Positions 4,705-63,879 of a DNA stretch of 64,000 nt are shown in pieces. Made by a program: the position numbers and the translations under genes. Position 1 is the stretch's first letter. Each line of letters begins with the position of its first letter. Under the pieces are notes generated by a model, which saw nothing but the letters and a program-made list of their open reading frames with translations, did no database searches and had not been told where the DNA came from. The DNA is from Chitinophagaceae bacterium PMP191F (GTDB lineage Bacteria > Bacteroidota > Bacteroidia > Chitinophagales > Chitinophagaceae), in the NCBI GenBank assembly GCA_001302245.1, contig LGYU01000012.1, forward strand, positions 62,001-126,000, read 5' to 3'.

Positions 4705-5904
4705 TTATCCCAGATGCTCCATTTCCCTCATATACGTCGCCATATCCTTATCACCTCTTCCACTCAGACACAACACCACTACATCCTGTTCGGTAAAATT
4801 CATTTTCTTCAGTGCGGCCAGTGCATGTGATGATTCCAGTGCGGGAATAATACCTTCCAGCCTGGTCAGTTCAAAGGCTGCCTGTAATGCTTCTTCATCT
4901 GTTGCATTCAGAAATGTACCACGACCACTATCATACAGGTATGCATGCAAAGGACCAATACCGGGATAATCAAGTCCGGCAGAAATGCTGTGTGGTTCTA
5001 TCACCTGCCCATCTTCAGTTTGCATTACCAGGCTTCTGCTGCCATGCAATACACCGGGCTTTCCCAACTGCGTGGTAGCGGCACTGTGACCACTGTCAAC
5101 ACCCAATCCTGCCGCTTCAACAGCTACCAGTTTTACAGACGGCTCATCCAGGAAGTGATAGAACGTTCCGGCGGCATTGCTGCCTCCGCCTACACAGGCC
5201 ATTACATAATCCGGTAAATCCTTCCCTGTTTTTTCTTTCAGTTGTTTCCTGATCTCCTCACTGATCACACTCTGAAAACGAGCTACCATATCAGGATAAG
5301 GATGTGGCCCTACCACGCTGCCAATGATGTAATGTGTATCGCCGGGGTTGTTGATCCAGTCGCGAATAGCTTCATTGGTAGCATCTTTCAGCGTTTTACT
5401 ACCGCTGGTAGCCGGTATTACCGTAGCGCCCAGCATCTTCATGCGCGCTACATTGGGGGCCTGGCGTTCAATATCCTTTTCACCCATGTACACAATACAT
5501 TCAATGCCTTTCAGTGCACATACCGTAGCTGTTGCCACACCGTGTTGTCCGGCGCCGGTTTCGGCAATGATGCGTTTTTTGCCTAAACGTTGTGCCAGTA
5601 ATATCTGTCCTATTGTATTGTTGATCTTATGCGCGCCGGTATGACACAGATCTTCGCGCTTGAGATAAATAGTAGTATTAAACTGCTTACTTAACCGTTC
5701 CGCCAGGTACAGCGGTGTGGGGCGTCCTACATAGTCTTGCAGCAGGTACCGGAACTCTTTCTGAAAAGAGGCTTCCTGCATAATTTCAAGATACTTCGAT
5801 TTCAGCTCTTCCACATTCCTGTGCAGCATCTCCGGAATAAAAGCCCCGCCAAATTTTCCATAATAGCCCTGCGCATCCGGTCGTTGATAAGTTGTTGTTG
5901 TCAT
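4705..5904 (-). CDS. trpB: Tryptophan synthase beta chain
   Basis: A PLP enzyme that condenses indole with serine. It shows the PLP lysine in [13 protein letters not shown], the catalytic Glu region [14 protein letters not shown], the glycine-rich phosphate loop [10 protein letters not shown], and [11 protein letters not shown]. Length 399 fits the standard TrpB1 type that pairs with TrpA. The start at 5904 follows the upstream GNAT stop by 38 bases. Confidence 0.97.
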
Positions 5905-5942
5905 CGTAGTTAATTCTATTTAACGTCTGTTGTGTTGCTCAA

Positions 5943-6467
5943 TTACTGCTCCCTTGGTTGTAATGGGGTATCCAATAATAACTGGAGAAATATAAGATCC
6001 AGCCATCGTCCGAATTTATACCCCACCTGTTTAAAATGAGCTACTTTTTCAAAACCAAAACTTCTGTGCAGTTGCAGACTTGCTTCATTGGCAGCATCTA
6101 TACCGGAAATAATTGTATGCATATCCAGTTGCCTGGCTGCTTCAATCAATGGCGGCATCAGCAATTTACCAATCCCCTTTCCCCGCGCACTGCTGTCTAC
6201 ATATATTGAATTTTCAACCGAATATTTATACGCTGCCCACGCCCTGAAAGGACCAATGGAACTGAATCCCAGTAACAGGCCGTCTTCCGCTGCCACAAAT
6301 ACCGGAAACCCCTGTTGTTGTTTAGTATCCCACCATTGCTGCCGTGCCTCCATTGTGTGCGGTTGATAATCGTACACCGCAGTAGTGTTCAGAATAACAT
6401 CGTTGTATATGGCAAGCATTGCTGGCAGATCCTGTTCTGTAGCATTTCGTACCGTAACCATATACAT
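5943..6467 (-). CDS. GNAT family N-acetyltransferase, phosphinothricin/amino-acid acetyltransferase-like
   Basis: A 174-residue GNAT of the Pat/YncA (MnaT) type. It begins VRNATEQDLPAMLAIYNDVI and shows VENSIYVDSSARGKGIGKLL (acetyl-CoA loop), GIDAANEASLQLHRSFGF, and the VGYKFGRWLDLIFLQ tail characteristic of this subgroup. Members acetylate L-phosphinothricin, methionine sulfone or similar amino acids, and the native substrate is often unknown. It lies 6 bases downstream of trpF and 38 bases upstream of trpB, so it is embedded in the trp operon. Start is either the ATG at 6467 or the one at 6461. Confidence 0.88.
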   Translation of the reverse strand: MYMVTVRNATEQDLPAMLAIYNDVILNTTAVYDYQPHTMEARQQWWDTKQQQGFPVFVAAEDGLLLGFSSIGPFRAWAAYKYSVENSIYVDSSARGKGIGKLLMPPLIEAARQLDMHTIISGIDAANEASLQLHRSFGFEKVAHFKQVGYKFGRWLDLIFLQLLLDTPLQPREQ

Positions 6468-6473
6468 TATTTT

Positions 6474-7112
6474 TTATGGGTGAACACCCAATTGTTCAGT
6501 AAACATTTTCACTTTATCCATATCCTTAATACCAGGGCTCACTTCAAAACGGCTGTTGATATCAACAGCAAAAAGCGCCCTGGCAGCAGTATCCTGTATA
6601 AACTCTTTCAGCCTGCCTTCATCACCGGGTTCAATACCACCGCTCAGAAAGAAAGGTTTACCAATAGAAGCGCCCTGCAATACACTCCAGTCAAACTTTT
6701 TACCGGTGCCGCCGTATCCAGCTCCCATTGTATCGAACATGAACATATCACATACATCCATATAAGGACGGATCATCCATTCAACACTATCATTCTCGCT
6801 GAGGCGGAAAGCCTTTACCACCGACACATAATCCGCAATCTTTTCACAGAACTTGGGCGTTTCATCACCGTGCAATTGTACCATATGCAAACGGCATTCG
6901 TCTACCATGTGCAATACCTCTTCTACCGATGAGTTTACGAACACACCTACTTTGTTGATGTTGTTCACTTTCCTGATCTGGGTAGTGGTCATATTTTTGA
7001 AAACATAACGCGGGCTTTTTGAATAGAAGATAAAGCCGGCAAAGGTTACTCCGAAACCAGCCAGTTGCTCTACCTGTTCAACCTGCGTCATGCCACATAC
7101 TTTTACGCGCAT
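6474..7112 (-). CDS. trpF: Phosphoribosylanthranilate isomerase
   Basis: Catalyses the Amadori rearrangement of PRA to CdRP. It has KVCGMTQVEQV with the catalytic Cys at the N terminus, GVFVNSS, MVQLHGDETPKFC, the general-acid Asp in FMFDTMGAGYGGTGKKFDW, FFLSGGIEPGDE, and VDINSRFEVSPGIKD. 212 residues. It starts at 7112, 44 bases after trpC. Confidence 0.96.
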   Translation of the reverse strand: MRVKVCGMTQVEQVEQLAGFGVTFAGFIFYSKSPRYVFKNMTTTQIRKVNNINKVGVFVNSSVEEVLHMVDECRLHMVQLHGDETPKFCEKIADYVSVVKAFRLSENDSVEWMIRPYMDVCDMFMFDTMGAGYGGTGKKFDWSVLQGASIGKPFFLSGGIEPGDEGRLKEFIQDTAARALFAVDINSRFEVSPGIKDMDKVKMFTEQLGVHP

Positions 7113-7156
7113 ATTCCCGGATTTTAAGTGTTAGGCAGTCAGGCAGCAATCGTATC

Positions 7157-7957
7157 TTAATGGAAGCGCTGACAAGATAACAGTTGTTGGGCAAATTGCT
7201 CAAATGCTTTTCCGGGATCGGTTGCTTTCATAAAATTTTCTCCTACCAGAAAGCCTCTGAATCCGTGTTTTTTAAACAACTGTATGTTCTCCACTGCATT
7301 GATACCACTTTCTGCAATCTTTACTTTACCCGCCGGGATCTGCTCTGCCATTTTCAGACTTCTGTCAATATCTACCACAAATGTTTTCAGGTTACGGTTA
7401 TTGATGCCTACCAGTACAGTATCATCACAGATATGTTCCAGTTCGCCCTCATCATGCAATTCCAGTAACACTTCCAGTTGCAGACTTTTAGCAAAAGCTG
7501 CCAGTCTTTTTACTGTAGCAGTATCCAGGCAGGCAGCAATCAGTAGTATTACATCCGCTCCCATTGCTTTTGCTTCCACAATCTGGTACTCGTCGATCAT
7601 AAAATCCTTCCGCAGAATAGGAATGTTGTTGATCCGGGCCTGCTCCAGATCCTGTGTACTACCTCCGAAAAATTGTTCATCGGTCAGCACAGACAAACCG
7701 GAAGCACCGCCGGCAGCATAAGCCGAAGTAACAGCCACCACGTCTGCCGTTCCGTTGATAATACCTTTGGATGGCGATTTACGTTTAAACTCTGCTATGA
7801 TGCCCGTTTTGGCGTCGTCCAGTAAAAACTGTTTCAGTGACAAAACAGGCCGTGCAAAAGCAGGTTTCTTTTCCAGTTCACTGATACTTACCAAAGCCTT
7901 TCTTTCAGCAACTTCCTTTTTCTTATGTTCTATAATCGTATCGAGAATATTCATCAT
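7157..7957 (-). CDS. trpC: Indole-3-glycerol phosphate synthase
   Basis: Ring-closes CdRP to indole-3-glycerol phosphate. It shows ILDTIIEHKKKEVAERK at the N terminus, FKRKSPSKGIING with the catalytic Lys, SVLTDEQFFGGS, PILRKDFMIDEYQI, VGINNRNLKTF, and KIAESGINAVENI. The frame extends upstream to 7987, but the family start is M-M-N-I-L-D, so the ATG at 7957 (or 7954) is preferred, giving 266-267 residues. It is separated from trpD by about 220 bases of repeat-like sequence, the largest gap within the operon. Confidence 0.96.
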   Translation of the reverse strand: MMNILDTIIEHKKKEVAERKALVSISELEKKPAFARPVLSLKQFLLDDAKTGIIAEFKRKSPSKGIINGTADVVAVTSAYAAGGASGLSVLTDEQFFGGSTQDLEQARINNIPILRKDFMIDEYQIVEAKAMGADVILLIAACLDTATVKRLAAFAKSLQLEVLLELHDEGELEHICDDTVLVGINNRNLKTFVVDIDRSLKMAEQIPAGKVKIAESGINAVENIQLFKKHGFRGFLVGENFMKATDPGKAFEQFAQQLLSCQRFH

Positions 7958-7984
7958 TATATTTTTTGAAACCCGAAAAATCAA

Positions 7985-8178
7985 CAAAATGCAACCGGTT
8001 TATCATTCACTATTGACCATTCACAGCTCAACTTCATTTAGTTATCAGTAACTATCTGTCATAAAGACTCAACGTATGCATAAAGAAAAAACCTTTGTGA
8101 CCCTTTCTTTTTTTGTGCCTTAGTGGCAAAAACAGCTTAACTAAACGACATTAATTCACACCTCACCATTCACCACTC
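7985..8178. repeat. Operon-internal spacer of degenerate intergenic words between trpD and trpC
   Basis: This spacer has no gene, promoter box or terminator that I can support. It holds two word-like families seen elsewhere in the window. One is 'caccattcaccactcac' and 'attgaccattcacag'. The other is 'cctttgtgaccctttctttt...gtgccttagtggcaaaa' at about 8088-8137. All the neighbouring trp genes are packed within 50-90 bases of each other, so this looks like an insertion or expansion of intergenic filler inside the operon. Confidence 0.5.
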
Positions 8179-8179
8179 A

Positions 8180-9172
8180 CTACTGCAAACTCACCAATTT
8201 ATTCAACGCAGCATACGCTTTACCACTTTCAAGACTTTCCACAGCAGCAGCATACGCATCATCGTATGAAGTATAATTACCGGTACAATGCAATGCCATG
8301 GCAGCATTGGCCAGCACTACCGCGTTCTGCGCCCATGTGCCCTCACCTCTTATGATCTTCTGGAACAGTTTTGCGGCATCTTCCACGCTATTACCGCCGT
8401 AAATATCAGCAGGTTGTACTGCACGTTTGCCCAGTTGTTCGGGCGTCATGATCCTTTCTCCGGCATTGGTGATCACCTTGGTATCATTGGTCAGCGATAT
8501 TTCATCATACCCGTCAAGACTATGTATGATAGCAAACGCCTGGTCTGTCTGTTGTAACAGGTAGTTATATACACGTGCCATTTCAAGATTGTATACACCT
8601 ACCAACTGAAACTTTGGGAAAGCAGGATTTACCATGGGGCCCAGCATATTGAAAAAAGTACGCACGCCCAGGTTTTTCCTGATAGGTCCTACAGCTTTCA
8701 ATGCCGGATGAAATAATGGTGCGTGCAGGAAACAGATATTCGCCTCTTCCACTTCTCTCTTCAATGCATCCCTGTTGTTCTTGAATTTATAGCCCAGTTG
8801 TTCCATTACATTGGAAGCTCCGCTTACTGAAGTAGCGCCGTAATTACCATGTTTGGCAACTTTTTGACCGGTACCTGCTACTATAAAACATGCCAGTGTA
8901 GAAATGTTGAATGTATTCTTACCATCACCACCGGTACCTACAATATCCACTACAGCATGACTATTCAGGTCAACCGGTACACAAAGCTCAAGCAAAGCAT
9001 CCCGGAATCCCTGTAACTCTTCAATGGCAATGCTGCGCATCAGGTAAACAGTCATAAAGGCTGTTACCTCATGTTCATTGTAAACACCCTTGCCTATATT
9101 CACCAGGGCTTCTTTTGCCTGTTGTCTGCTGAGCGTTTTGTATTCAAATAAGTATTGTAATATCTTTTTCAT
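8180..9172 (-). CDS. trpD: Anthranilate phosphoribosyltransferase
   Basis: Transfers phosphoribose from PRPP to anthranilate. The PRPP-binding VGTGGDGKNTFNISTLAC (about residues 78-95), the KHGNYGATSVSGASNVMEQLG block, FLHAPLFHPALKAVGPIRKNLGVRTFFNMLGP, and VHSLDGYDEISL-like text (IIHSLDGYDEISL) are all present. 330 residues, stand-alone and not fused to TrpG. The gene starts 44 bases downstream of trpG. Confidence 0.97.
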   Translation of the reverse strand: MKKILQYLFEYKTLSRQQAKEALVNIGKGVYNEHEVTAFMTVYLMRSIAIEELQGFRDALLELCVPVDLNSHAVVDIVGTGGDGKNTFNISTLACFIVAGTGQKVAKHGNYGATSVSGASNVMEQLGYKFKNNRDALKREVEEANICFLHAPLFHPALKAVGPIRKNLGVRTFFNMLGPMVNPAFPKFQLVGVYNLEMARVYNYLLQQTDQAFAIIHSLDGYDEISLTNDTKVITNAGERIMTPEQLGKRAVQPADIYGGNSVEDAAKLFQKIIRGEGTWAQNAVVLANAAMALHCTGNYTSYDDAYAAAVESLESGKAYAALNKLVSLQ

Positions 9173-52289: not shown

Positions 52290-55200
52290 CTACTGAGCCA
52301 ATGAAATCCGTATCTGGATATTGGCCCTTGTAACCACTGTAGGTGGTGAGGCAGAAATTTTCGGGGTGGTTCTCCGCTGATCAAAATAGAGTTTAATGTT
52401 TACACGATTACTGATCACATAGTCAATAGAAGGTGTGATGGTAATCACCTTCTGCCCACTGGTAGGCAGTGACTGACTCTGATCCAGGCGGCTGTTCGCC
52501 ACAATATCATCCTGTATACCGATATCAAGCCTGAAGCTGGCATCGTTACTCAATGGTTTTCCCTTCCACTTCAGGAAGGAGAATGCCCCACGTTTGCGCA
52601 AACCAGCTCCCAACGTAAACTTGGTGGTACGACTTTCACTCAGTTGGTAATCGATAAGGCTTAAGCTCAGTGTGCGTGATTTTTCAAACGCTACGTGTGC
52701 AGTTAGTTGGTTAGTGAACTGCATATCTGCATCCAGCAACGGCGCAAACTCTTCCCTGATGGTAATATTGGGCACCATGAAGTAGGGTATAAAGTTGCCG
52801 GTAAGCGTATCCAGGAAGCCCGGATAACTTACCCTGAACGGATCTTTGAACAACAGGTTAGAGTTAAAGCTGTTCATACTCAGTGTACTGTTGTATCCAT
52901 GTGTAAGCGTAAAGCTGGTAAAGATCTTCTGCAGTGCATTGATACGTGTTAAGCCGGTATACGTTACACGCCAGTTAGGTTTAGGCAAAATACCAGAGAA
53001 CGGGTTGGAACGTATGTTGGGGCTATTCTGCTTCATCAGCGAAACCTTTTCCGGACTTTTTCCGGTATAAGCTGCAATGAATGCAGGGATCAATACATCC
53101 TGCGCATAACGGCTGTAACCATTATAATAGCCATCGGAAAGGAATTTTTCGTTGGCCGGTAACCCCTGCCAGTATGGACTTTGTTCGGCCAGGCGTTTTG
53201 ACAAAATGAGACGATTGTTCTGGAATGTTTTAAACGCATCCGAAACCTCGTTGTCTTTTATTTTTGCAAACAATGTCTGGAATGAAATATATGATACACT
53301 GAAACTACCTGCTGTATAAGGATTGAGGCGGGCAAAATGCGTTCCCAGACCGGTAGTGTCTTTGTACAGCTCGCTATACGATTTACCAAATGTCTTTTCC
53401 AGGTTCAGGTCAATGATCAGGTCGCGGATGGGTGAAACCTGTGCCGTGATGGTCAGCTTCTGTGTATAGTTCTGTGAGTTCTGGAAGTTGAATGTAGAGT
53501 CTGCAGTGAGCCAGCCTTTCTGCGCCATCTTGTTGATGAAGTTGGTATCCGGTTGCATACCAAACACAAAACCAAGACCGGGTGCTCCTGTTTTAAAGTT
53601 CATACCCAGTGCACGTGTACTGTCGGTATAACCATATATATTGGCCGTGGCATTTTCGGTATAATCAATCCCGATACTCTTAATAGAGGTCAGCAAACGA
53701 CCCAGGAATTTCACACCGCCACTCAACTGCAATGGCTCGTTCGGGTCACGTTTTCTGCGTGCGGTATCCTGTTTGTTTTTATTGATGGCAGCGCCGGGTG
53801 GTTTCGGACCTGCAGGCCCATTATCTTCATCCAGTGCACGCATCCATCTTGATTTGCTGTACAACCTTGTAAAATCAAACCTGGTTGAAACAGTTTTCTG
53901 CTGCGAGTTCGATAACGTATTGCCAAGATTTCTTGCCAGCAATGAAGCCGCAATATAGTTGAACGTGGCACCATAGCTTACACGTGCTGTGGTCCAGTCG
54001 AGGAATGGTAATTTAGCTGTAGGCAATGTATAGGTAGCATTGGCAGTTTGCTGGTAAGAAATGGTACGACCACCTTTCCAGAAACGTTTCCACATACTTT
54101 GACGTTCCTCTTTATTCAGTCTGCCCGGATCTTCATCGATCCATGCTTTGTTCACAGCAGAGAAATCAATATTGAGTGAACGTGTCAGATCCCAGCGCAG
54201 GTTATACGTACGGTCAAACGTGAAATACTTGTCATATGTCTCCGGTAAGATATTTTTCGGACCGCCTACGTTGCGTGCCCGGAAAGCACCAAACTGCCGG
54301 TTCACATCTGCCCTGAAGCCCAGCAATGTGGGCATAGGGTTGAAATTGAAATCTTTTACAAACGTGACCCATTTTGATTTTGACTTAATGAGTTTTTTGG
54401 CAGGCTCCCAGAATTTGGGCGTACTGGTATAATTATACCCCAATCCTGCTTTATGCCGCGTGATCGCATTGCTTTCAATCAGCGGATTGTGCTGCTCTTC
54501 TTTATAATAAGAATAGCTTACATCTATATTCTCAATACTCCACAGCTTTTGCTTTTTGCCGGTAATATTGCTCCTTCGCACATTGGTGAAGTTGAACGTT
54601 CGTATCGTTCGTACATCCACGGCCGCATCGCGTATCGAATCGCGCATACTGGCTGGTGCCGCACTCAGTTTTTGCTTCAACTTAATATCCAGATCGTACG
54701 GATCATATTCCGGTGTGCTGACAGTTTTGGAATAACTGGCGTAGAATGGAATAGAAAGACCGGCAGTACGCGGCAACAACTTACCCAGTTCCAGGCTGGT
54801 TGCCATGTCAAACTGCCTGTAGTTATCAAGTGACCTTTCATTGATCCTTTGTTCAATACTTCCCCAGCCACTGCTGTGTGCGCTTCCCGATACAGTTAAG
54901 GTACCCAGGTCAGCCAGCTTCACATCCACCCTGCCCAGCGCAGCCCATGAACCATCCTGGTTAATATCGCTCAAACGCAGTTCGTTGAACCATATTTCCG
55001 TACAGGCCTCTTCACGGGTACGATTTTCCACACCTATAAAGAATACCTGCACTTCACCCAGGTTGGGATTACCAAGAATGGCCAGCTCTCTTCCCGTAGC
55101 GTCTGTTTCCTTATAATATTGATTGGTTGAACCGGTATTGTTACGCGCCAGTTTCAGTTTCACCAGGCTATCCAGTGCCAGGTTCAGTTCATTCTGTGCA

Positions 55201-58200
55201 GGCCATATCAATGCATCGTCACTGGTACCCCATGGTGTAATGGCCAATGGAATACGTATTTCATAGAAGTTACTGATCAGGTCATTACCCAAACGAATCA
55301 CACCATACAATTCATTGTTCTTGATATCACCGCTTGACACCTTAGACTCTGCGTGCATGTACATCTGCAAACGCCCGTAACGACGCAGGTCCAGACTCAT
55401 GGTTTTAAATACACCACGCACATCCCTGCGGGCAAGATTACATACCTGTAAGCTCAGTGATTGTTCGTTCAGCAACAGGTTCACGTTGTTGTTACTCAAC
55501 TGCTGCTGGCGTACTACACCGGGAGGTGTTTTATAAGGAATAGGATAACGTGAACTGTTTTCTTCCACGTTTACCGCAAGCTGGTTGACAACAGTATTGG
55601 TATTGACAGGAATGGTTACATACTGTCCTGTTGTATCTAACAAATAGTTGAACTGACGCCACTGGTTACGCACCAGTTCCAGTTTGGCAAAACGGAGGAT
55701 CACAGAATCCTGGAAACCTGTCAGGTACATACGCACAAAACGGATCGATTTGAAATCCGGGATATCACCTACTTTCTGTTGGTATTCAGAAATAGGAATG
55801 CGGAACAGGTACCATTTTTCCTGCATACCATTGGTAGGTGTAAAGGTGCGGGTATCAGTAATGAAATTCTGTCCTACCTGGAACTGGCTTGATTTCAATT
55901 CTACCTTATACTGGAAATATTCTTCCAGTTCGTTCATGGTATTGTCTTTATTGAACTCTTCCTGGTCAGGATACAGGGTAAAGGCATTTACATACTGATC
56001 ACCTGAAGAGGCTACCGGTGAGTTGCCCTGCGGGTTGTTTACATTTTTATAGCGACCGAGGATACCCGTTGAAGCAGCATCATAAGTAGCATCGCGATAA
56101 TTTTTAAAGTCATCATTAGCGGGATCGTTCAATGCCTGCTGGTAAATAGCAGAACCGGTACCAAAATTAGCAGCCAGCCTGTTGAGGTAAGTAGCAAATT
56201 TGCGACGTTCTGCATCATTGTCCAGGCCATCAAAACCGGCATCCTGCAAAGGACGGTCTGCCGGATCATTACTGAATGCATTGGTTACCTGTATAGAGTT
56301 GGCCGGCACCTTACCCCACCTGGTAGACGAATCTTCCAGTGCTTTTGTTACTGCACCGCTGATACCGTTCTCAAAAAAACGTTTACCATCTTTCAATACA
56401 TCCTCTGATATATTACCCAGGTTAAAATACAATTCCCCACCTGTACTGTTAGGCATTTTCAGGAAGGGGTCCTGTAACCAGAACTCAATATATTGTACGT
56501 TGCCTGTTTCAAAGTCAACCTGGTCAAGACCACGCATAATACCACCCCATCGTTTTTGCGGATTCAGCAATTCGCCACTGGCTGTAATATTAGTAGCATC
56601 AAAATTGTAAGGGCCCCTTTGTTTGGGATAGAACGCCATGTCAAAGGTTACCAGCTGCGCCTGTCCGTAGTCGGGCGTTTTGTTGGGATAGATCTGTGTT
56701 ACCAGTACCGGACGCACACGCGGATCGGTCAGGTCTTCATAATTCCTTACCGGGTTATTGGCATTCTTTTTATCCTGTAATACAGACTCAATATTATACC
56801 ATGACAATTTTGCCCTGTTGAAACCATAGTCCAGTGAATCCATCAATGTGGCTTCGGGGAACAGGCCATTGTTGGCCGGCGTAGATGACAAGCCCCAGCT
56901 TACCAGTGGAAAACGCAGGTCAATTGAACTGCGGCTGCCTTCAAAATCATCAATAAAGATCAGGCCATTGCTACCGGAACCGATCTGTTTCGGGTGACCG
57001 GGTTTCAGGTAAGCCGCTTCGCCATAAGCCGTAATGGTACTCATTTCGGTGGTATGGTAAAAAGGCAGCTTGTCCAGCAGGCGTGTTAAACGGGGCACTT
57101 CTGTACGATAGTTGAAGTCAATACCATACATGGTGTTACGGATGGGATCATCGTTGTACCCTGTTTTGGTAAAGAAAGGACGTTCGCCCAAACGCTCGTA
57201 CGTCATACCTATATTCAATGCTTCTTTCGCAGTATTTTTTACATTGTAATCGGCACGTATACCTAAAAAGTTTCGCTGCTGAATACCAAAGGCTGCATTG
57301 TCCTCATAATTTACATTCACCGGTACCCCTGAATTTAAAATAGCCTGGTTCAGGATCCTTACAGTACCCAGTGAATAATCCACCATGTAATCTACATTCT
57401 CTACCAGCGTTTGGCTACCGGCTGATACACTTACCGATCCCTGCGATATATTGAATGCGCCCAGGCTGATCTCGGAAGTAGATGTTCCTTTGGCATAACC
57501 ACTGATAATATACCTGTCAAGGTTAGCATAGGTCTTTGCGATCTCTTTAATGGTATCGTACAGTGGGTAATAGACATACTTATCCCTCAGGGATTGCGGA
57601 CTACTGGCAAAAGCTGCTGTTTCCAGGTCTTTACCAAAAGGTTCAAGAAACGGGAAGATGATCCGCGCCTGTTGCGAGACGACCGTATATCCTTCCAGGT
57701 AGTCAAATACCCCATCGGGCGTGGGGTCATTCCGGCTGTTCAACCTGTCAAGGTTCAGTACCGTGATTAACGGCACTTCTTTCTGATCGCCTTCCGGCAG
57801 ATAACGTTTCTGACCCAGGCTGGGTTGATCATATAATACATTCAGCTTAAAATCGCCGGGCTGTATATTAGATAAATAACTACCACTTTTTGTTTTAAGC
57901 GTATAAACGTTTTTCATCATCAGGTCCCACAAAGGCAGTTGTGTACGCTGTGATGTTGCTTTCAGCAATTTCAGGAACAGTATTTTCTGTATACCTGCAG
58001 TGTTGGTAGTGGTATCGGGTGGTACATCCTGTGAAAATTCACCTACCTGGAAAATACGGCCATTGTAACTATACTGATAAGCTACTGCCAGTACTTCATC
58101 TGACTGCAGCGGCTGGTTAAGTGAAAGAAAGCCCAGTTGTGCATTGAATGTATAATCAGAAGCCGTGAGCTTGCGGGCAAATGTTTTTTCAAAATCCTGT

Positions 58201-59456
58201 ACAGGTTTCAGTCCCATGGCCGACAACATGGTGGTAACCGAAGAGGAAACACGGATGCCGGACTGGTTAATAATATTACGGTACAGGTTGTTGGCATCAT
58301 TGAAAGGATATGGCTGCGGCGTATTGGGCGCCACAACAGGGTTGTACGGTTGTGTTTCACCCAGGTCCATCAAACCTACCACATCACGCGTGTCGGTGGT
58401 AGTACCATTCCTGTTGGTGACCCATACTTCCATACGCAGTATCTGCACCTGTGAATTCACTTTGGGCAACTGCGACATGGCCTTATTAAAGTTATTCCGG
58501 AAGAACTGCGCCATCAGGAAGTGACGGTTCTCATCGTAATCATCTACTTTGAATTCAAAATAGGTATTGGTGGCACCGCCCTGTACACCCAGCGACTGGC
58601 GTTGTGAACGCTGATTGGCCAGCACACCGGTCAGTGACAGTTTTCCAAACTGCAACTGTGTTTTAATACCAAATAATTGCTGTACACCTGGTATCAGTGT
58701 TCCTTTGGAAGAAAAGGACACGTTACCCGCTTCAATTTTGCGGATGATCTCGTCCTGTGTACCGGTATAATCCAGCTTCAACTGGTTTTCCCAGTCCATG
58801 TTTGCCAGTGTATTGTAACTGATCGGCAGTTTCATTTTATCGCCGATATTGGCAATCACGTTCAGGTTGGCGCTCATATCGAAATCGAAACCACCGGTAC
58901 GGCGGGCTCTTTCGGGCAAGGCAGGGTTTTTGACATTCTGCCCCTGGTAACCCGCCAGGATATTTACATCGCCCTGCGGACGGATATCAATTTTGCCATT
59001 TCCGAAAATGCGGTTGAACAGGTTGTCGGTAATAGCTTGTTTGGGACGCAGCAGTTTCCGATTGAGTGTATTGCTCATATCGGAACGTTTTTTAAAGTAA
59101 TCATCTTCAGCCCTGCGAGCCTGCAGTTGCTGAAATTCTTCAAAAGTGAGATAACCCGGTTTGCGGAACCAGGTTGACCCAATTTTTTCAATAATATAAT
59201 ACTGCCTTGTTTTGGGATCGTAAACAATTGAGTCTGTAAGGTTCGATGGGTCTGACAGACCAAATGACCGACGGCCGGGGAAACTAAGTCTGTCTCCACG
59301 GCGATCATGAATAGGATACTTCAAGGTATCTGCACTTTTGGGAGCAGAGGTATCCTGGAATGGCGAATAGTATGCTGAAGCTGTAACACAGGGCACAACA
59401 AAAGCAGCCATACACAAAGCCATAGTAATGGCAATCTGATAAGATATCCGGACCAA
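52290..59456 (-). CDS. sprA: T9SS outer-membrane translocon SprA (Sov)
   Basis: 2388 residues, the length expected of SprA. Conserved text includes TRQYYIIEKIGSTWFRKPGY, NLFNRIFGNGKIDIRPQGDV, FDMSANLNVIANIGDKMKLP, FSSKGTLIPGVQQLFGIKTQ, DYSLGTVRILNQAILNSGVP, FIDDFEGSRSSIDLRFPLVS, and a C-terminal barrel strand RANIQIRISL. It forms the very large beta-barrel through which T9SS substrates cross the outer membrane. The first possible start is TTG at 59456 (V-R-I-S before a signal-like segment ITMALCMAAFVVPCVTASA); an ATG at 59423 is the alternative. It follows ruvA by 47 bases, an arrangement known from other Bacteroidota. Its likely substrates in the window are the S8 protease, the CHU_C protein and the propeller protein. 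Confidence 0.96.
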   Translation of the reverse strand: MVRISYQIAITMALCMAAFVVPCVTASAYYSPFQDTSAPKSADTLKYPIHDRRGDRLSFPGRRSFGLSDPSNLTDSIVYDPKTRQYYIIEKIGSTWFRKPGYLTFEEFQQLQARRAEDDYFKKRSDMSNTLNRKLLRPKQAITDNLFNRIFGNGKIDIRPQGDVNILAGYQGQNVKNPALPERARRTGGFDFDMSANLNVIANIGDKMKLPISYNTLANMDWENQLKLDYTGTQDEIIRKIEAGNVSFSSKGTLIPGVQQLFGIKTQLQFGKLSLTGVLANQRSQRQSLGVQGGATNTYFEFKVDDYDENRHFLMAQFFRNNFNKAMSQLPKVNSQVQILRMEVWVTNRNGTTTDTRDVVGLMDLGETQPYNPVVAPNTPQPYPFNDANNLYRNIINQSGIRVSSSVTTMLSAMGLKPVQDFEKTFARKLTASDYTFNAQLGFLSLNQPLQSDEVLAVAYQYSYNGRIFQVGEFSQDVPPDTTTNTAGIQKILFLKLLKATSQRTQLPLWDLMMKNVYTLKTKSGSYLSNIQPGDFKLNVLYDQPSLGQKRYLPEGDQKEVPLITVLNLDRLNSRNDPTPDGVFDYLEGYTVVSQQARIIFPFLEPFGKDLETAAFASSPQSLRDKYVYYPLYDTIKEIAKTYANLDRYIISGYAKGTSTSEISLGAFNISQGSVSVSAGSQTLVENVDYMVDYSLGTVRILNQAILNSGVPVNVNYEDNAAFGIQQRNFLGIRADYNVKNTAKEALNIGMTYERLGERPFFTKTGYNDDPIRNTMYGIDFNYRTEVPRLTRLLDKLPFYHTTEMSTITAYGEAAYLKPGHPKQIGSGSNGLIFIDDFEGSRSSIDLRFPLVSWGLSSTPANNGLFPEATLMDSLDYGFNRAKLSWYNIESVLQDKKNANNPVRNYEDLTDPRVRPVLVTQIYPNKTPDYGQAQLVTFDMAFYPKQRGPYNFDATNITASGELLNPQKRWGGIMRGLDQVDFETGNVQYIEFWLQDPFLKMPNSTGGELYFNLGNISEDVLKDGKRFFENGISGAVTKALEDSSTRWGKVPANSIQVTNAFSNDPADRPLQDAGFDGLDNDAERRKFATYLNRLAANFGTGSAIYQQALNDPANDDFKNYRDATYDAASTGILGRYKNVNNPQGNSPVASSGDQYVNAFTLYPDQEEFNKDNTMNELEEYFQYKVELKSSQFQVGQNFITDTRTFTPTNGMQEKWYLFRIPISEYQQKVGDIPDFKSIRFVRMYLTGFQDSVILRFAKLELVRNQWRQFNYLLDTTGQYVTIPVNTNTVVNQLAVNVEENSSRYPIPYKTPPGVVRQQQLSNNNVNLLLNEQSLSLQVCNLARRDVRGVFKTMSLDLRRYGRLQMYMHAESKVSSGDIKNNELYGVIRLGNDLISNFYEIRIPLAITPWGTSDDALIWPAQNELNLALDSLVKLKLARNNTGSTNQYYKETDATGRELAILGNPNLGEVQVFFIGVENRTREEACTEIWFNELRLSDINQDGSWAALGRVDVKLADLGTLTVSGSAHSSGWGSIEQRINERSLDNYRQFDMATSLELGKLLPRTAGLSIPFYASYSKTVSTPEYDPYDLDIKLKQKLSAAPASMRDSIRDAAVDVRTIRTFNFTNVRRSNITGKKQKLWSIENIDVSYSYYKEEQHNPLIESNAITRHKAGLGYNYTSTPKFWEPAKKLIKSKSKWVTFVKDFNFNPMPTLLGFRADVNRQFGAFRARNVGGPKNILPETYDKYFTFDRTYNLRWDLTRSLNIDFSAVNKAWIDEDPGRLNKEERQSMWKRFWKGGRTISYQQTANATYTLPTAKLPFLDWTTARVSYGATFNYIAASLLARNLGNTLSNSQQKTVSTRFDFTRLYSKSRWMRALDEDNGPAGPKPPGAAINKNKQDTARRKRDPNEPLQLSGGVKFLGRLLTSIKSIGIDYTENATANIYGYTDSTRALGMNFKTGAPGLGFVFGMQPDTNFINKMAQKGWLTADSTFNFQNSQNYTQKLTITAQVSPIRDLIIDLNLEKTFGKSYSELYKDTTGLGTHFARLNPYTAGSFSVSYISFQTLFAKIKDNEVSDAFKTFQNNRLILSKRLAEQSPYWQGLPANEKFLSDGYYNGYSRYAQDVLIPAFIAAYTGKSPEKVSLMKQNSPNIRSNPFSGILPKPNWRVTYTGLTRINALQKIFTSFTLTHGYNSTLSMNSFNSNLLFKDPFRVSYPGFLDTLTGNFIPYFMVPNITIREEFAPLLDADMQFTNQLTAHVAFEKSRTLSLSLIDYQLSESRTTKFTLGAGLRKRGAFSFLKWKGKPLSNDASFRLDIGIQDDIVANSRLDQSQSLPTSGQKVITITPSIDYVISNRVNIKLYFDQRRTTPKISASPPTVVTRANIQIRISLAQ

Positions 59457-60479: not shown

Positions 60480-61481
60480 ATGAGTCAAAAAATTACTGCC
60501 GCTATCACTGCTGTGGGCGGCTACGTTCCCGAAGACAGGCTAACCAACTTTGACCTGGAGAAGATAGTTGACACAAACGACGAATGGATCCGCACCCGTA
60601 CCGGCATTGAAGAAAGAAGAATTCTGCGGGGTGACGGTAAGGCTACTTCTGACATGGTAGTTCCGGCAGTACGGCAATTATGCGAAAAAAGAGGCATCGA
60701 CCCCATGGAAATAGATGCCATAATTGTGGGCACCGTTACTCCGGATATGCTGTTCCCTTCTACCGCCAACCTGGCCTGTCATAAACTGGGCGCTAAAAAT
60801 GCCTGGGGCTTTGACCTGCTGGCGGCCTGCTCCGGCTTTTTGTATTCCCTCACTACCGGCGCTTCTTTAATTGAAAGCGGCCGTTATAAAAAAGTAGTGG
60901 TAGTGGGTGCCGATAAAATGAGCTCTATTATTGATTACAGCGACAGGGCTACCTGTATCATCTTTGGTGATGGTGCCGGTGCTGTACTGCTGGAACCCGA
61001 TACCAACGGATACGGCGTACTGGACAGCAAACTGAAAAGCGATGGTGCAGGCGGTCAGTACCTGCACATGAAGGCCGGCGGTTCTTTACGTCCTGCCTCA
61101 CTGGAAACCGTTAATAACCGTGAACACTTTGCCTACCAGGAAGGTCAGACCGTTTTCAAAAATGCAGTGAAAGGCATGGCTGATGTCAGCGCTGATCTGC
61201 TGGAAAGAAATCATCTTACCGGCAATGATATTGCATGGCTGGTGCCACATCAGGCCAACAAACGTATCATTGACGCCACTGCTGAGCGTGTTGGTTTATC
61301 GCAGGATAAAGTGATGGTGAATATTTACAAATACGGTAATACTACCGGCGCTACCATTCCGCTGTGTTTGTGGGATTGGGAAAGCAAACTTAAGAAAGAC
61401 GATAACCTGCTGCTGGCTGCTTTTGGCGGCGGCTTTACCTGGGGAGCAACCCTGGTAAAATGGGGTTACGACGGAAAATAA
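60480..61481 (+). CDS. fabH: 3-oxoacyl-ACP synthase III (FabH-type)
   Basis: 333 residues from the ATG at 60480; the frame opens earlier, but the family begins near [20 protein letters not shown]. It shows [18 protein letters not shown], the catalytic Cys in [32 protein letters not shown], and the His and Asn of [20 protein letters not shown] and [15 protein letters not shown]. It starts fatty-acid synthesis by condensing acyl-CoA with malonyl-ACP. It stands alone, not beside plsX or other fab genes. Confidence 0.93.
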
Positions 61482-61499
61482 CACCAGTTCAACATTATA

Positions 61500-61545
61500 C
61501 CCCCCCCCCCGGTGCATTGCTGTGCCGGGGGGGTGTTGTTTGAAT
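61500..61545 (+). terminator. Terminator-like hairpin after fabH containing an 11-base poly-C tract
   Basis: C11 followed by GG, then a loop of about 12 bases, then CC and G7 (61500-61533) form a very GC-rich stem. TGTTGTTTG follows. The unequal C and G runs leave extra C residues on the 5' side. It serves as the boundary between fabH and the convergent peptide genes. Confidence 0.65.
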
Positions 61546-61561
61546 ACTGCCACCGCTTTTT

Positions 61562-61780
61562 TTAGTTTACGCACAATTCAAAAGGACTATGGCAGGTGCC
61601 TATTTCCTCGCAAGGCGCATCATAATGACAAGCCCCCTGCGGTTGTACAGATCTGCATACTTCTGCATACCACGAGCCATCGATAAAACATCTCCATAAA
61701 GTTTGCGGAGGTACACCCCCTGCTATATTTTTCATTTCAGTGCGGGTCAGTGATTTACCCAGTTGTTGAATTTCTCTCAT
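61562..61780 (-). CDS. Double-glycine-leader six-cysteine peptide precursor 1
   Basis: 72 residues. The leader has REIQQLGKSLTRTEMKNIAG and ends with Gly21-Gly22, the cleavage signal used by C39 peptidase transporters and common in Bacteroidota natural-product precursors. The 50-residue core carries six Cys at 31, 42, 51, 57, 63 and 70, with CHYDAPC and EEIGTC. An AGAGG sequence lies 4 bases before the ATG. It is the last of three related minus-strand genes. No modifying enzyme or transporter is within the window. Function (bacteriocin, signalling or surface peptide) is unknown. Confidence 0.8.
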   Translation of the reverse strand: MREIQQLGKSLTRTEMKNIAGGVPPQTLWRCFIDGSWYAEVCRSVQPQGACHYDAPCEEIGTCHSPFELCVN

Positions 61781-61828
61781 GTGACCTCTTTTCCAGTTGA
61801 AAAATTAAAAATAGGTGCCCGTTGCTTC

Positions 61829-62047
61829 CTATGAGCAATTAGTGGGCGCAAGACAGCTTCCAACCGCTGTACAAAAATCATAACCACAAAAAGGTGTAGG
61901 ATCTGTTGTACGGCAATTGTAAAATGCCTGTGTGGTATTACCGCCTTCATAACATGCCCAGCGGATATAATTTACAAGACCGCCGGAAATGCTTTTCATT
62001 TCAGTACGGGTAAGTGATTTGCCCAACTGTTGAATATTTTTAAACAT
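61829..62047 (-). CDS. Double-glycine-leader six-cysteine peptide precursor 2
   Basis: 72 residues. The leader (FKNIQQLGKSLTRTEMKSIS, Gly22-Gly23) is almost identical to that of precursor 1, while the core differs apart from its cysteines at 32, 45, 54, 59, 65 and 71. Shared core landmarks are W-A-C, CGYDFC and AVGSC. The gene lies 48 bases upstream of precursor 1 and 62 bases downstream of the broken copy. Conserved leader with variable core is the usual pattern of processed-peptide families. Confidence 0.8.
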   Translation of the reverse strand: MFKNIQQLGKSLTRTEMKSISGGLVNYIRWACYEGGNTTQAFYNCRTTDPTPFCGYDFCTAVGSCLAPTNCS

Positions 62048-62109
62048 ATAACAGGATTGCTTTTTAGTAAAAGCAACAAAACTTCAGATAGTTAATAATC
62101 GGTGAACAT

Positions 62110-62324
62110 TCATACAGCCATACATTGCGTCATAAAAGAACAGGTACCTGTTATGTCGCAATAATCGTAACCACAGGCAGTTGCAGGATCAAATGCAAAC
62201 ACATTTGTACTGATGAGCCATTGTAATAACATGTCCATTCCGGGAATGCAGCAAGTGCCCCGGTAATGTTTTTCATTGCATCGCGCGTGATGGGAGTACC
62301 CAACTGAGACATTTTTTTGAGCAT
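62110..62324 (-). pseudogene. Six-cysteine leader peptide precursor 3, frameshifted
   Basis: Starts at the ATG at 62324 with LKKMSQLGTPITRDAMKNIT, then G-A where the others have G-G, then WTCYYNGSSVQMC. After this Cys the frame runs into unrelated residues and stops at 62151. Adding one T to the TTT run at 62199-62197 restores FAFDPATACGYDYCDITGTC and a stop at 62110, giving 71 residues with Cys at 32, 42, 51, 56, 62 and 68, the same pattern as the two intact copies. It is either a recent pseudogene or a sequencing error; the GA cleavage site also suggests decay. Confidence 0.75.
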
Positions 62325-62652: not shown

Positions 62653-63879
62653 ATGGCTGATAATCAATTTTCACCGACCGGCTTTAGCTCGCTGGCCATT
62701 CATGCAGGACATGCCCAGGACCCACGTTACGCACACCTGGTACCCGTCTATGCATCTTCTACTTTTGTATATGATAATGCCGAACAAGGCATGCAACGTT
62801 TCAGCGGACAAGAGGACGGCTATATCTATTCACGCTGGAGCAATCCCACTTCTGATGAAGCCATGTGGAAAATTGCCGCGATGGAAACCTTTGGCTTACA
62901 GGATGCATCGGGCAATCCCCTGCAGGCAACAGGTTTTCTGCAGGCATCCGGTATGGCAGCCATCAGCAGCATGTTCCTGTCTGCATTGAAAAAAGGTGAT
63001 AAAGTATTATCCCATTACTCGCTTTACGGCGGTTCGCAGGAGTTCCTGGACAAGATATTGCCCGACCTGGGTATTGATTATATTATTGATGACCTGCGCG
63101 ATCTGAACAAGGCAGAAGCAGCCCTGAAGAAAGACCCGGCCATCAAAATGGTATACATTGAAACCCCAGCCAACCCTACCCTGCAGTGTGTAGACATTGA
63201 GGCGCTTACCACGCTTGCCAAAAAATATGGAAAACTGGTGGCCTGCGATAATACATTTGCTACCCCTTACCTGCAACAGCCATTCCGGTATGGCGTTGAT
63301 TTCATTATTCACTCCACTACCAAATTTCTCAATGGTCATGGTACGGCCATTGGCGGTATATTCCTGGGTCGTGATGTAGAGTTTATGCATACACAGGCAC
63401 GCAAAACCTTCCGTTTGCTGGGTGGTAACAGCAGTCCTTTTGATGCCTTTTTGCTGATCAACGGTTTGAAGACACTGGAGATCCGTATGGATCGTCATTG
63501 TCACAATGCTATGGAAGTAGCCGGGTACCTGGAAGCACATCCTGCAATTGCCAGGGTAAATTATACCGGTTTGCCCACACACCCCGATCACCATGTGGCA
63601 ACCAAACAGATGCGTCACCCCGGAGCCATGATGAGCTTTGAACTGAAAGGAGGTTTGCAGGCAGGTGTTAACATGATGAATAAACTGAAAATGTGTACCC
63701 GAACTGTTTCATTAGGAACCTGTGATACTTTACTCTGTCATCCTGCTTCTATGACGCACTACAGTGTGCCCAGGGAAAAGCGCGAACAATACGGTATTAC
63801 AGACGGTCTGATCCGTATGAGCACCGGCATGGAAAATGTACAGGATATTCTGAAAGACCTGGAGCAGGCACTCAGTTAG
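62653..63879 (+). CDS. PLP-dependent trans-sulfuration enzyme (cystathionine gamma-synthase/lyase, sulfhydrylase or methionine gamma-lyase type)
   Basis: 408 residues of the Cys/Met metabolism PLP family. It shows FSSLAIHAGHAQDP, VPVYASSTFVYDN, YSRWSNPTSDEAMWKIAAME, ASGMAAISSMFLSAL, YIETPANPTLQCVDIEAL, ACDNTFATPYLQQP, the PLP lysine in DFIIHSTTKFLNGHGTAIGG, RLLGGNSSPFDAFLLINGLK and TLLCHPASMTHYSVPREKR. The exact reaction (O-acylhomoserine sulfhydrylation, cystathionine formation or cleavage, or methionine gamma-lyase) cannot be fixed from motifs. No other sulfur amino-acid gene is in view. Confidence 0.9.
   Translation: MADNQFSPTGFSSLAIHAGHAQDPRYAHLVPVYASSTFVYDNAEQGMQRFSGQEDGYIYSRWSNPTSDEAMWKIAAMETFGLQDASGNPLQATGFLQASGMAAISSMFLSALKKGDKVLSHYSLYGGSQEFLDKILPDLGIDYIIDDLRDLNKAEAALKKDPAIKMVYIETPANPTLQCVDIEALTTLAKKYGKLVACDNTFATPYLQQPFRYGVDFIIHSTTKFLNGHGTAIGGIFLGRDVEFMHTQARKTFRLLGGNSSPFDAFLLINGLKTLEIRMDRHCHNAMEVAGYLEAHPAIARVNYTGLPTHPDHHVATKQMRHPGAMMSFELKGGLQAGVNMMNKLKMCTRTVSLGTCDTLLCHPASMTHYSVPREKREQYGITDGLIRMSTGMENVQDILKDLEQALS

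Follow-up and report, generated by a model that had tools for sequence, protein, structure and literature searches.

The window, the whole stretch of 64,000 nucleotides that was analysed, contains an array of three small genes on the minus strand (61562-62324), each opening with a leader that ends in GG or GA and continuing into a cysteine-rich core. The array and its immediate surroundings comprise the following features.

ends at 61481, + strand, ketoacyl-ACP synthase III-like gene (identified by eye), one flank of the array
61504..61533, no strand assigned, G+C-rich hairpin with a 13-bp stem, between the plus-strand gene ending at 61481 and the minus-strand peptide array
61562..61780, - strand, peptide copy 1, 72 residues: 22-residue leader MREIQQLGKSLTRTEMKNIAGG, 50-residue core with six cysteines at spacings 10,8,5,5,6
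61829..62047, - strand, peptide copy 2, 72 residues: 23-residue leader MFKNIQQLGKSLTRTEMKSISGG, 49-residue core with six cysteines at spacings 12,8,4,5,5
62110..62324, - strand, peptide copy 3, frameshifted, with leader MLKKMSQLGTPITRDAMKNITGA ending in GA
starts at 62653, + strand, PLP-dependent gene (identified by eye), the other flank of the array

These coordinates and translations bear out the sequence-only reading of the locus, which had described two intact 72-residue precursors and one frameshifted copy with a shared six-cysteine core pattern, the latter matching the spacings of copies 1 and 2. Its claim that the GG leaders are near-identical stands for these two copies but not for copy 3, whose leader is more divergent and ends in GA. 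Copy 3, analysed with its reading frame unmended, starts at 62324 and runs for 57 residues to a stop at 62151, with two core cysteines (C-x9-C) before the break; its second half (CGYDYC...GTC...TQC, four cysteines) is open in a different frame that ends at 62110. The region 61480-61560 has a folding energy of -31.5 kcal/mol (z -2.84), and the hairpin within it is probably a terminator for the converging transcripts. The Bacteroidota -7 promoter element, TAnnTTTG, is absent from the 110 bases upstream of each of the three copies. Elsewhere in the window, a 2388-residue open frame (52290-59456, minus strand) appears by eye to encode a SprA-like giant outer membrane protein, presumably of the type IX secretion/gliding system.

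Profile searches place the window peptides in a peptide family without a name. Profile A1, built from copies 1 and 2, recovers an additional member from the window's own genome (C8:102418-102609, 4.6e-5; MNKLRIAGTILSRQQMKLLSGG..., with the motif CGYSLC); it finds no relative in the public genomes searched, and all its matches outside its own genome in a set of 59 genomes are weaker than E 0.01. Profile A2, which adds the C8 member and hence still draws on this one genome, matches 19 of 394 family genomes at E 0.01, its best matches outside its own genome being three peptides of G087, a genome of another genus (8.6e-12, 5.9e-8 and 1.2e-6). Profile A4, with seven members, matches 24 of the 394 family genomes at E 0.01 and 7 of 395 class genomes at E 0.001, own genome included in both counts, and retrieves unseen members from a different family of the class (4.2e-10, 1.3e-9 and 1.1e-8). 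The profile search for homologues that had been proposed from the sequence thus yields relatives in another genus and in another family. Members were added by eye from G527 (three, two of them in tandem), G689, G710 and G380. The family as counted here consists of the 13 rows of alignment A6 (three from the window's genome, ten from outside) and the broken copy 3; many of the remaining A2 and A4 matches are other cysteine-rich GG peptides or chance. Two A6 rows have altered cysteine spacing, G167 L037 (1,27,6,4,6) and G380 L203 (1,30,6,4,6); they are at best a sub-family, and the core pattern was not rested on them. The tandem pair of G527 (L195:8825-9402) belongs to the same six-cysteine family and, as an orphan pair, parallels the array in the window.

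Library searches agree with the earlier statement that no named family has this core. The three window peptides have no Pfam match up to E 10, and the 13 A6 members have single weak matches to four Pfam families at E<=1 (ET module, Bacteriocin_IIc at 0.027, netrin receptor domain and DUF6059, one member each). In NCBIfam, the best match of copies 1-3 is NF047798 (leader_Chryseo, 'bacteriocin-like protein') at 15.6, 15.2 and 14.5 bits, all below its cut-off of 23.5 bits, and this model spans only 18 positions of the leader. Among the 13 A6 members at E<=0.1, leader_Chryseo matches eight (best 6.2e-5), TIGR04149 five (best 0.0011), the class IIb cerein model two, and lant_leader_L1b, CCPGW_fam and the lichenicidin model one each. 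Assignment of the window peptides to TIGR04149 (GG_sam_targ_CFB), as radical SAM precursors, was rejected: copy 2 reaches 12.8 bits where the cut-off is 25, and copies 1 and 3 have no match to this model at E 10 or better. Padloc returns no match. The leaders carry the hydrophobic positions and the GG or GA end before the core that are expected for C39 export, and the proposal that they are of the C39 type is supported by the best, sub-cut-off match to leader_Chryseo and by the C39 ABC exporter adjoining same-core relatives in G087.

Conservation within the family is concentrated in the cysteines. Across A6, the six cysteine columns have a mean identity of 97%, against 39% in the other 44 core columns with at least eight residues; one proline is invariant (13/13), and a tryptophan two residues before the first cysteine is found in 10 of 13. 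The cysteine number is even throughout, six in both intact window copies and, among the 13 members, exactly six in 11 and eight in two, with no cysteine in any leader. A comparison of copies 1 and 2 shows purifying selection on the leader (dN 0.15, dS 1.32, dN/dS about 0.11) and a core that has diverged to dN 0.95 with saturated dS while keeping 6/6 cysteines. The sequence-only reading had named a lack of constraint on the cysteines as a refuting condition: all six are kept at this core divergence, but their retention is partly circular because cysteines also guide the alignment. AlphaFold, run on copy 2 with A6, gives a mean pLDDT of 75.7, with block means of 85-91 over residues 31-70, and models the core as three strands and one short helix. 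A search of the PDB by fold with this model finds nothing at E 0.001 and nothing with Z of at least 2, so that no known disulfide fold can be named; the search by sequence returns only carnobacteriocin B2 (E 0.16, profile positions 7-37), mostly over the leader.

Candidate maturation machinery is encoded elsewhere in the genome. C39 peptidase domains (PF03412) occur at five places and VKOR domains (PF07884) at four, whereas the same search finds neither on C4, the contig of the window, in agreement with the earlier suggestion that a transporter would act in trans. The genome-wide search for C39/HlyD exporters that had been proposed finds two full C39 ABC exporters, in C65 and C10, and a HlyD-like gene (by eye) beside the former. 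The other three C39 places lie within VKOR genes (C25, C13 and C3), and in each of the four VKOR genes the VKOR domain is fused to a DsbA-like thioredoxin_4 domain. Their C39-like start is matched by Pfam at 54.4 bits in C25, 22.6 in C13 and 21.4 in C3 (just below the cut-off of 22); in the C65 fusion it is assigned by alignment only. Each of the four fusions adjoins a cysteine-rich GG-leader peptide (eight cysteines in C65 and C25, six in C13 and C3), and in each case the peptide is followed by a thioredoxin-fold gene (Redoxin/Thioredoxin_8; Thioredoxin_7; AhpC-TSA; AhpC-TSA with DUF4369). The order fusion, peptide, thioredoxin-fold gene is thus repeated at C65, C25, C13 and C3 (L020, L021, L024 and L025) with different cores, and with 26.9 bits the peptide at C25 exceeds the cut-off of leader_Chryseo. 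At the second C39 ABC exporter (L023:7217-9385, C10), a GG-leader peptide with a cysteine-free, Gly/Leu-rich core (MKNQQFTALTEQEMLTTNGGGPLDGLLNGLLGG...) is encoded about 1.4 kb away (L023:10764-10973).

The window copies do not adjoin a fusion of this kind, whereas members in G087 and G380 do. In G087, the three same-core peptides (L063:8268-8471, L063:10188-10403 and L053:1480-1707) flank the only VKOR place of the genome (C1:173176-173556), which lies in a fusion (L063:8502-10094) next to a C39 ABC gene (6033-8213) and a HlyD-like gene (4749-6023). The G380 member (L203:7879), with its altered spacing, adjoins a fusion, a C39 ABC and a thioredoxin gene, as labelled by motif, and the 6.8-kb contig that carries the G167 member also has a VKOR gene and a gene for a C39 ABC. 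The members of the window, C8, G527, G689 and G710 have no fusion or C39 ABC within the 9-18 kb around them.

VKOR is encoded in all eight genomes checked, against a base rate of 28/390 genomes in the class. All seven class genomes with an A4 match carry it (G000, G527, G606, G642, G689, G699 and G710); with the own genome removed, the co-occurrence is 6/6 (P 6.4e-8) by genome and 3/3 (P 4.7e-4) by genus, on profile and VKOR samples that differ by five genomes (395 and 390) and with shared descent handled only by genus counts and clustering. The six-cysteine core is found in only four of the seven, G000, G527, G689 and G710, which represent two genera, the last three being of one genus; the matched peptides of G642 and G699 have four cysteines each and that of G606 has seven. 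Because the matched peptides vary in cysteine number, the class test backs a VKOR link for cysteine-rich GG peptides generally, and for the strict six-cysteine core this co-occurrence only weakly supports it. A VKOR place is found about 0.6 kb from the G606 peptide and about 2 kb from that of G699, and the former peptide, with its odd seven cysteines (L187), is an exception to the even-number trend. Among 12 family genomes with matches, VKOR is present in 9 and absent in G063, G257 and G228; of the 24 family genomes matched by A4, 12 were covered by the VKOR check.

A scan with the fusion illustrates how widely this arrangement occurs. The best 80 of 213 matches correspond to 78 distinct named loci, largely from what we take to be Chitinophagaceae and Sphingobacteriaceae with some Flavobacteriaceae. 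Within these 78 loci, from the best 80 of 213 matches, a leader ORF with at least four core cysteines is present in 68 and a C39 ABC in 44 (within the stretch around the fusion), and 10 have no peptide by the leader rule, a loose pattern of GG-, GA- or GS-type that admits a few spurious ORFs. Under a stricter rule, a nearest downstream peptide is assigned in 54 of the 78 loci, with nine dropped (fusion ORF without motif) and 15 without a candidate. Of the 53 unique nearest peptides, 50 have an even number of core cysteines and three an odd number (49 and three after clustering, n=52), and plain binomial probabilities for this excess overstate it because they assume 50% and no shared descent; one of the 53 has a cysteine in the leader. 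In the wider set, with whole ORFs counted, 111 of 120 are even, and among control ORFs from these loci that have at least four cysteines, 248 of 358 are even, a high fraction because counts of four dominate. Among ORFs with at least five cysteines, the contrast is 104/113 in the wider set against 70/180 in the controls. One locus of Sphingobacterium tabacisoli (L133:4982-10059) encodes five cysteine-rich GG-leader peptides around a single VKOR fusion, with 6, 10, 8, 12 and 16 cysteines, all even. At eight further loci (L078, L102, L105, L118, L122, L124, L135 and L146), the leaders of fusion-adjacent peptides end in AGS (NIMAGSG type) rather than GG, which suggests that AGS may be a second cleavage motif of the same system.

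The fusion itself appears to combine an oxidase with an inactive peptidase-like start. The six redox cysteines of the VKOR and thioredoxin parts are invariant in 43/43 aligned fusions. Over the first 129 reference residues of the same alignment, no column has cysteine in at least 6 of the 43, and over residues 60-109 none has histidine in at least 10; in the absence of such columns, the catalytic residues of C39 are not conserved in the fusions. Some cysteine does occur in the 45 residues ahead of the HPDYPS motif in 15 of 71 fusions. The C65 fusion is modelled by AlphaFold at a mean pLDDT of 92.1, and the structure matches listed for it are DsbA-, BdbD-, ScsC-type and VKOR-like proteins, with no C39 peptidase among them. 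Type I secretion ABC proteins carry a C39-like domain, and by analogy with these we propose that the dead C39-like domain of the fusion could grip the leader.

Taken together, these observations favour a reading in which the array encodes precursors of small secreted peptides with three predicted disulfide bonds, which are oxidised by a VKOR-DsbA fusion, exported in trans by a C39 transporter and probably bacteriocin-like; we regard it as probable, though by no means assured. The precursor would be guided by its 22-23 residue leader to an unlinked C39 peptidase ABC transporter of the same genome; the transporter of the C65 cluster is the likeliest one, and it would cut after GG and export a core of about 50 residues. 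One of the four fusions of this genome would oxidise the six cysteines, coupling a VKOR quinone-linked oxidase to a DsbA-like thioredoxin, with the C39-like start, lacking catalytic residues, proposed to hold the leader, and the thioredoxin-fold proteins encoded beside the fusions may correct wrong bonds by shuffling or reducing them. The array would then be an orphan substrate set with fast-changing cores, most likely bacteriocin-like. The sequence-only reading had left the choice between three disulfides and another cysteine modification, and the fusions adjoining relatives, together with the mostly even cysteine numbers, point to the former. An antibacterial role, judged on its own, has in our estimate slightly less than an even chance.

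The alternative that survives best keeps the same disulfides and export and assigns a different role to the products, which would act as pheromones between cells or, at the cell surface, as structural or adhesive peptides. The occurrence of diverged orphan copies across several genomes would suit such a role, and none of the genes recognised near the array is an immunity gene. The fast core divergence (dN 0.95), however, fits a role in conflict better than a fixed receptor ligand, and bacteroidetocins, whose gene set is similar, are killing peptides even though no obvious immunity genes occur in their regions, according to the available part of PMC6671954. A signal or surface role is unlikely, yet it deserves more weight than any of the other alternatives.

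That the array is a decaying leftover, with duplicated precursors severed from their cluster and no longer made, is improbable. The frameshift in copy 3, the absence of a C39 or VKOR place on the contig and the lack of TAnnTTTG within 110 bases upstream of any copy are what decay would predict. Copies 1 and 2, however, are intact, their leader is constrained (dN/dS about 0.11), and orphan members are likewise intact in G527, G689 and G710, each of which has kept a VKOR gene.

Conversion of the cysteines into thioethers, as in a lanthipeptide or a radical-SAM product, is less probable still. It draws on the weak leader matches at E<=0.1 (TIGR04149 in 5/13 members, best 0.0011; lant_leader_L1b and the lichenicidin-type model in 1/13 each), but copy 2 falls at 12.8 bits against the TIGR04149 cut-off of 25, the genes adjoining close relatives are VKOR-DsbA fusion, thioredoxin-type and C39 ABC genes, and the even cysteine number is a prediction of pairing. 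A search of the genome for LanB (PF04738) gives no match, but the control likewise matched nowhere. Least probable is that reduced cysteines bind metal (metallothionein-like or zinc-knuckle) and that the VKOR link is incidental: the cysteine spacing taken alone is compatible with it, but the G087 and G380 members have an oxidase gene next to them, the leader points to export into an oxidising compartment, and no metal-protein family is found among the NCBIfam and Pfam matches of the 13 members.

The preferred reading, in which a fusion oxidises the peptides and a C39 transporter exports them in trans, bears on more than this locus. Tiny cysteine-rich GG-leader genes without an adjacent maturation enzyme occur in several Bacteroidota genomes, and the results suggest that such orphan precursor arrays are better regarded as substrates of machinery at other loci of the same genome. 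The link to the fusion offers both a testable maturation route and a search handle, namely to look for peptides by the fusion and to count even cysteines. More broadly, leader-guided disulfide formation may be widespread in Bacteroidota, with a VKOR-DsbA protein that reads GG leaders through its catalytically inactive C39-like domain and oxidises diverse cysteine-rich cores, before cleavage and release by a C39 ABC exporter, also for unlinked arrays, and with the six-cysteine family as a scattered orphan substrate; this extension is tentative, and we would sooner doubt it than assert it, if narrowly. If the dead C39 domain does grip the leader, leader-directed disulfide formation would be useful for producing disulfide-locked peptides in Gram-negative hosts.

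Comparison with known systems sets the family apart from each of them. Leader_Chryseo, the best library match, is alike in the leader and silent on the core. Actifensin and laterosporulin, defensin-like bacteriocins, also have six cysteines, and three disulfides and bacteriocin status are theirs (PMC6989792, available part). Membership in this group was rejected: the spacings 12,8,4,5,5 and 10,8,5,5,6 do not match its motif (C-x5-12-C-x3-C-x9-10-C-x4-5-C-x-C, same source), and no fold match is found in the PDB. Class II bacteriocin candidates have been predicted across phyla including Bacteroidota (PMC12648078, in part), and these peptides may therefore already be listed there. Among the literature matches listed, in a scope that mostly leaves aside subscription papers, no paper describes a C39-VKOR fusion with peptide genes, which is weak evidence of absence because listings are partial and coverage is limited. 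The available parts of PMC10352776 do not mention VKOR, and those of PMC4555120 contain none of the terms C39, peptidase, Bacteroidetes, bacteriocin or fusion.

On the enzyme side, the fusion resembles VKOR-thioredoxin and DsbB/DsbA systems in its six invariant cysteines and in its structural matches to DsbA, BdbD and VKOR-like proteins. It differs from them in the added C39-like N-terminus without catalytic residues and in that its gene mostly adjoins a peptide precursor.

The closest known kind are the bacteroidetocins (class IIf), and the window family is not a member. The likeness lies in the Bacteroidota origin, the GG leader and cysteines thought to pair as disulfides. Membership is ruled out, as far as the available part of the source allows, by leader length (15-16 residues in bacteroidetocins, 22-23 here), by core size and cysteine number (42 residues and four cysteines in mature bacteroidetocins A and B, 49-50 residues and six cysteines here, with at least two cysteines in other bacteroidetocin members; PMC6671954) and by the absence of C39 and VKOR from the contig. 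The bacteroidetocin region comprises four genes, for a five-TM protein, the peptide, a thiol oxidoreductase and a C39-type ABC transporter (Coyne et al. 2019, PMC6671954), and the available part of that paper makes no mention of a C39-VKOR fusion. Unlike bacteroidetocin genes, those of the window are unlinked to C39 and VKOR, whereas the G087 relatives have a linked C39 ABC and fusion. In bacteroidetocins, the disulfides are supported by a change in migration on reduction, and toxin activity is weakened when the gene for the oxidoreductase, the TM protein or the peptide is deleted (PMC6671954, available part).
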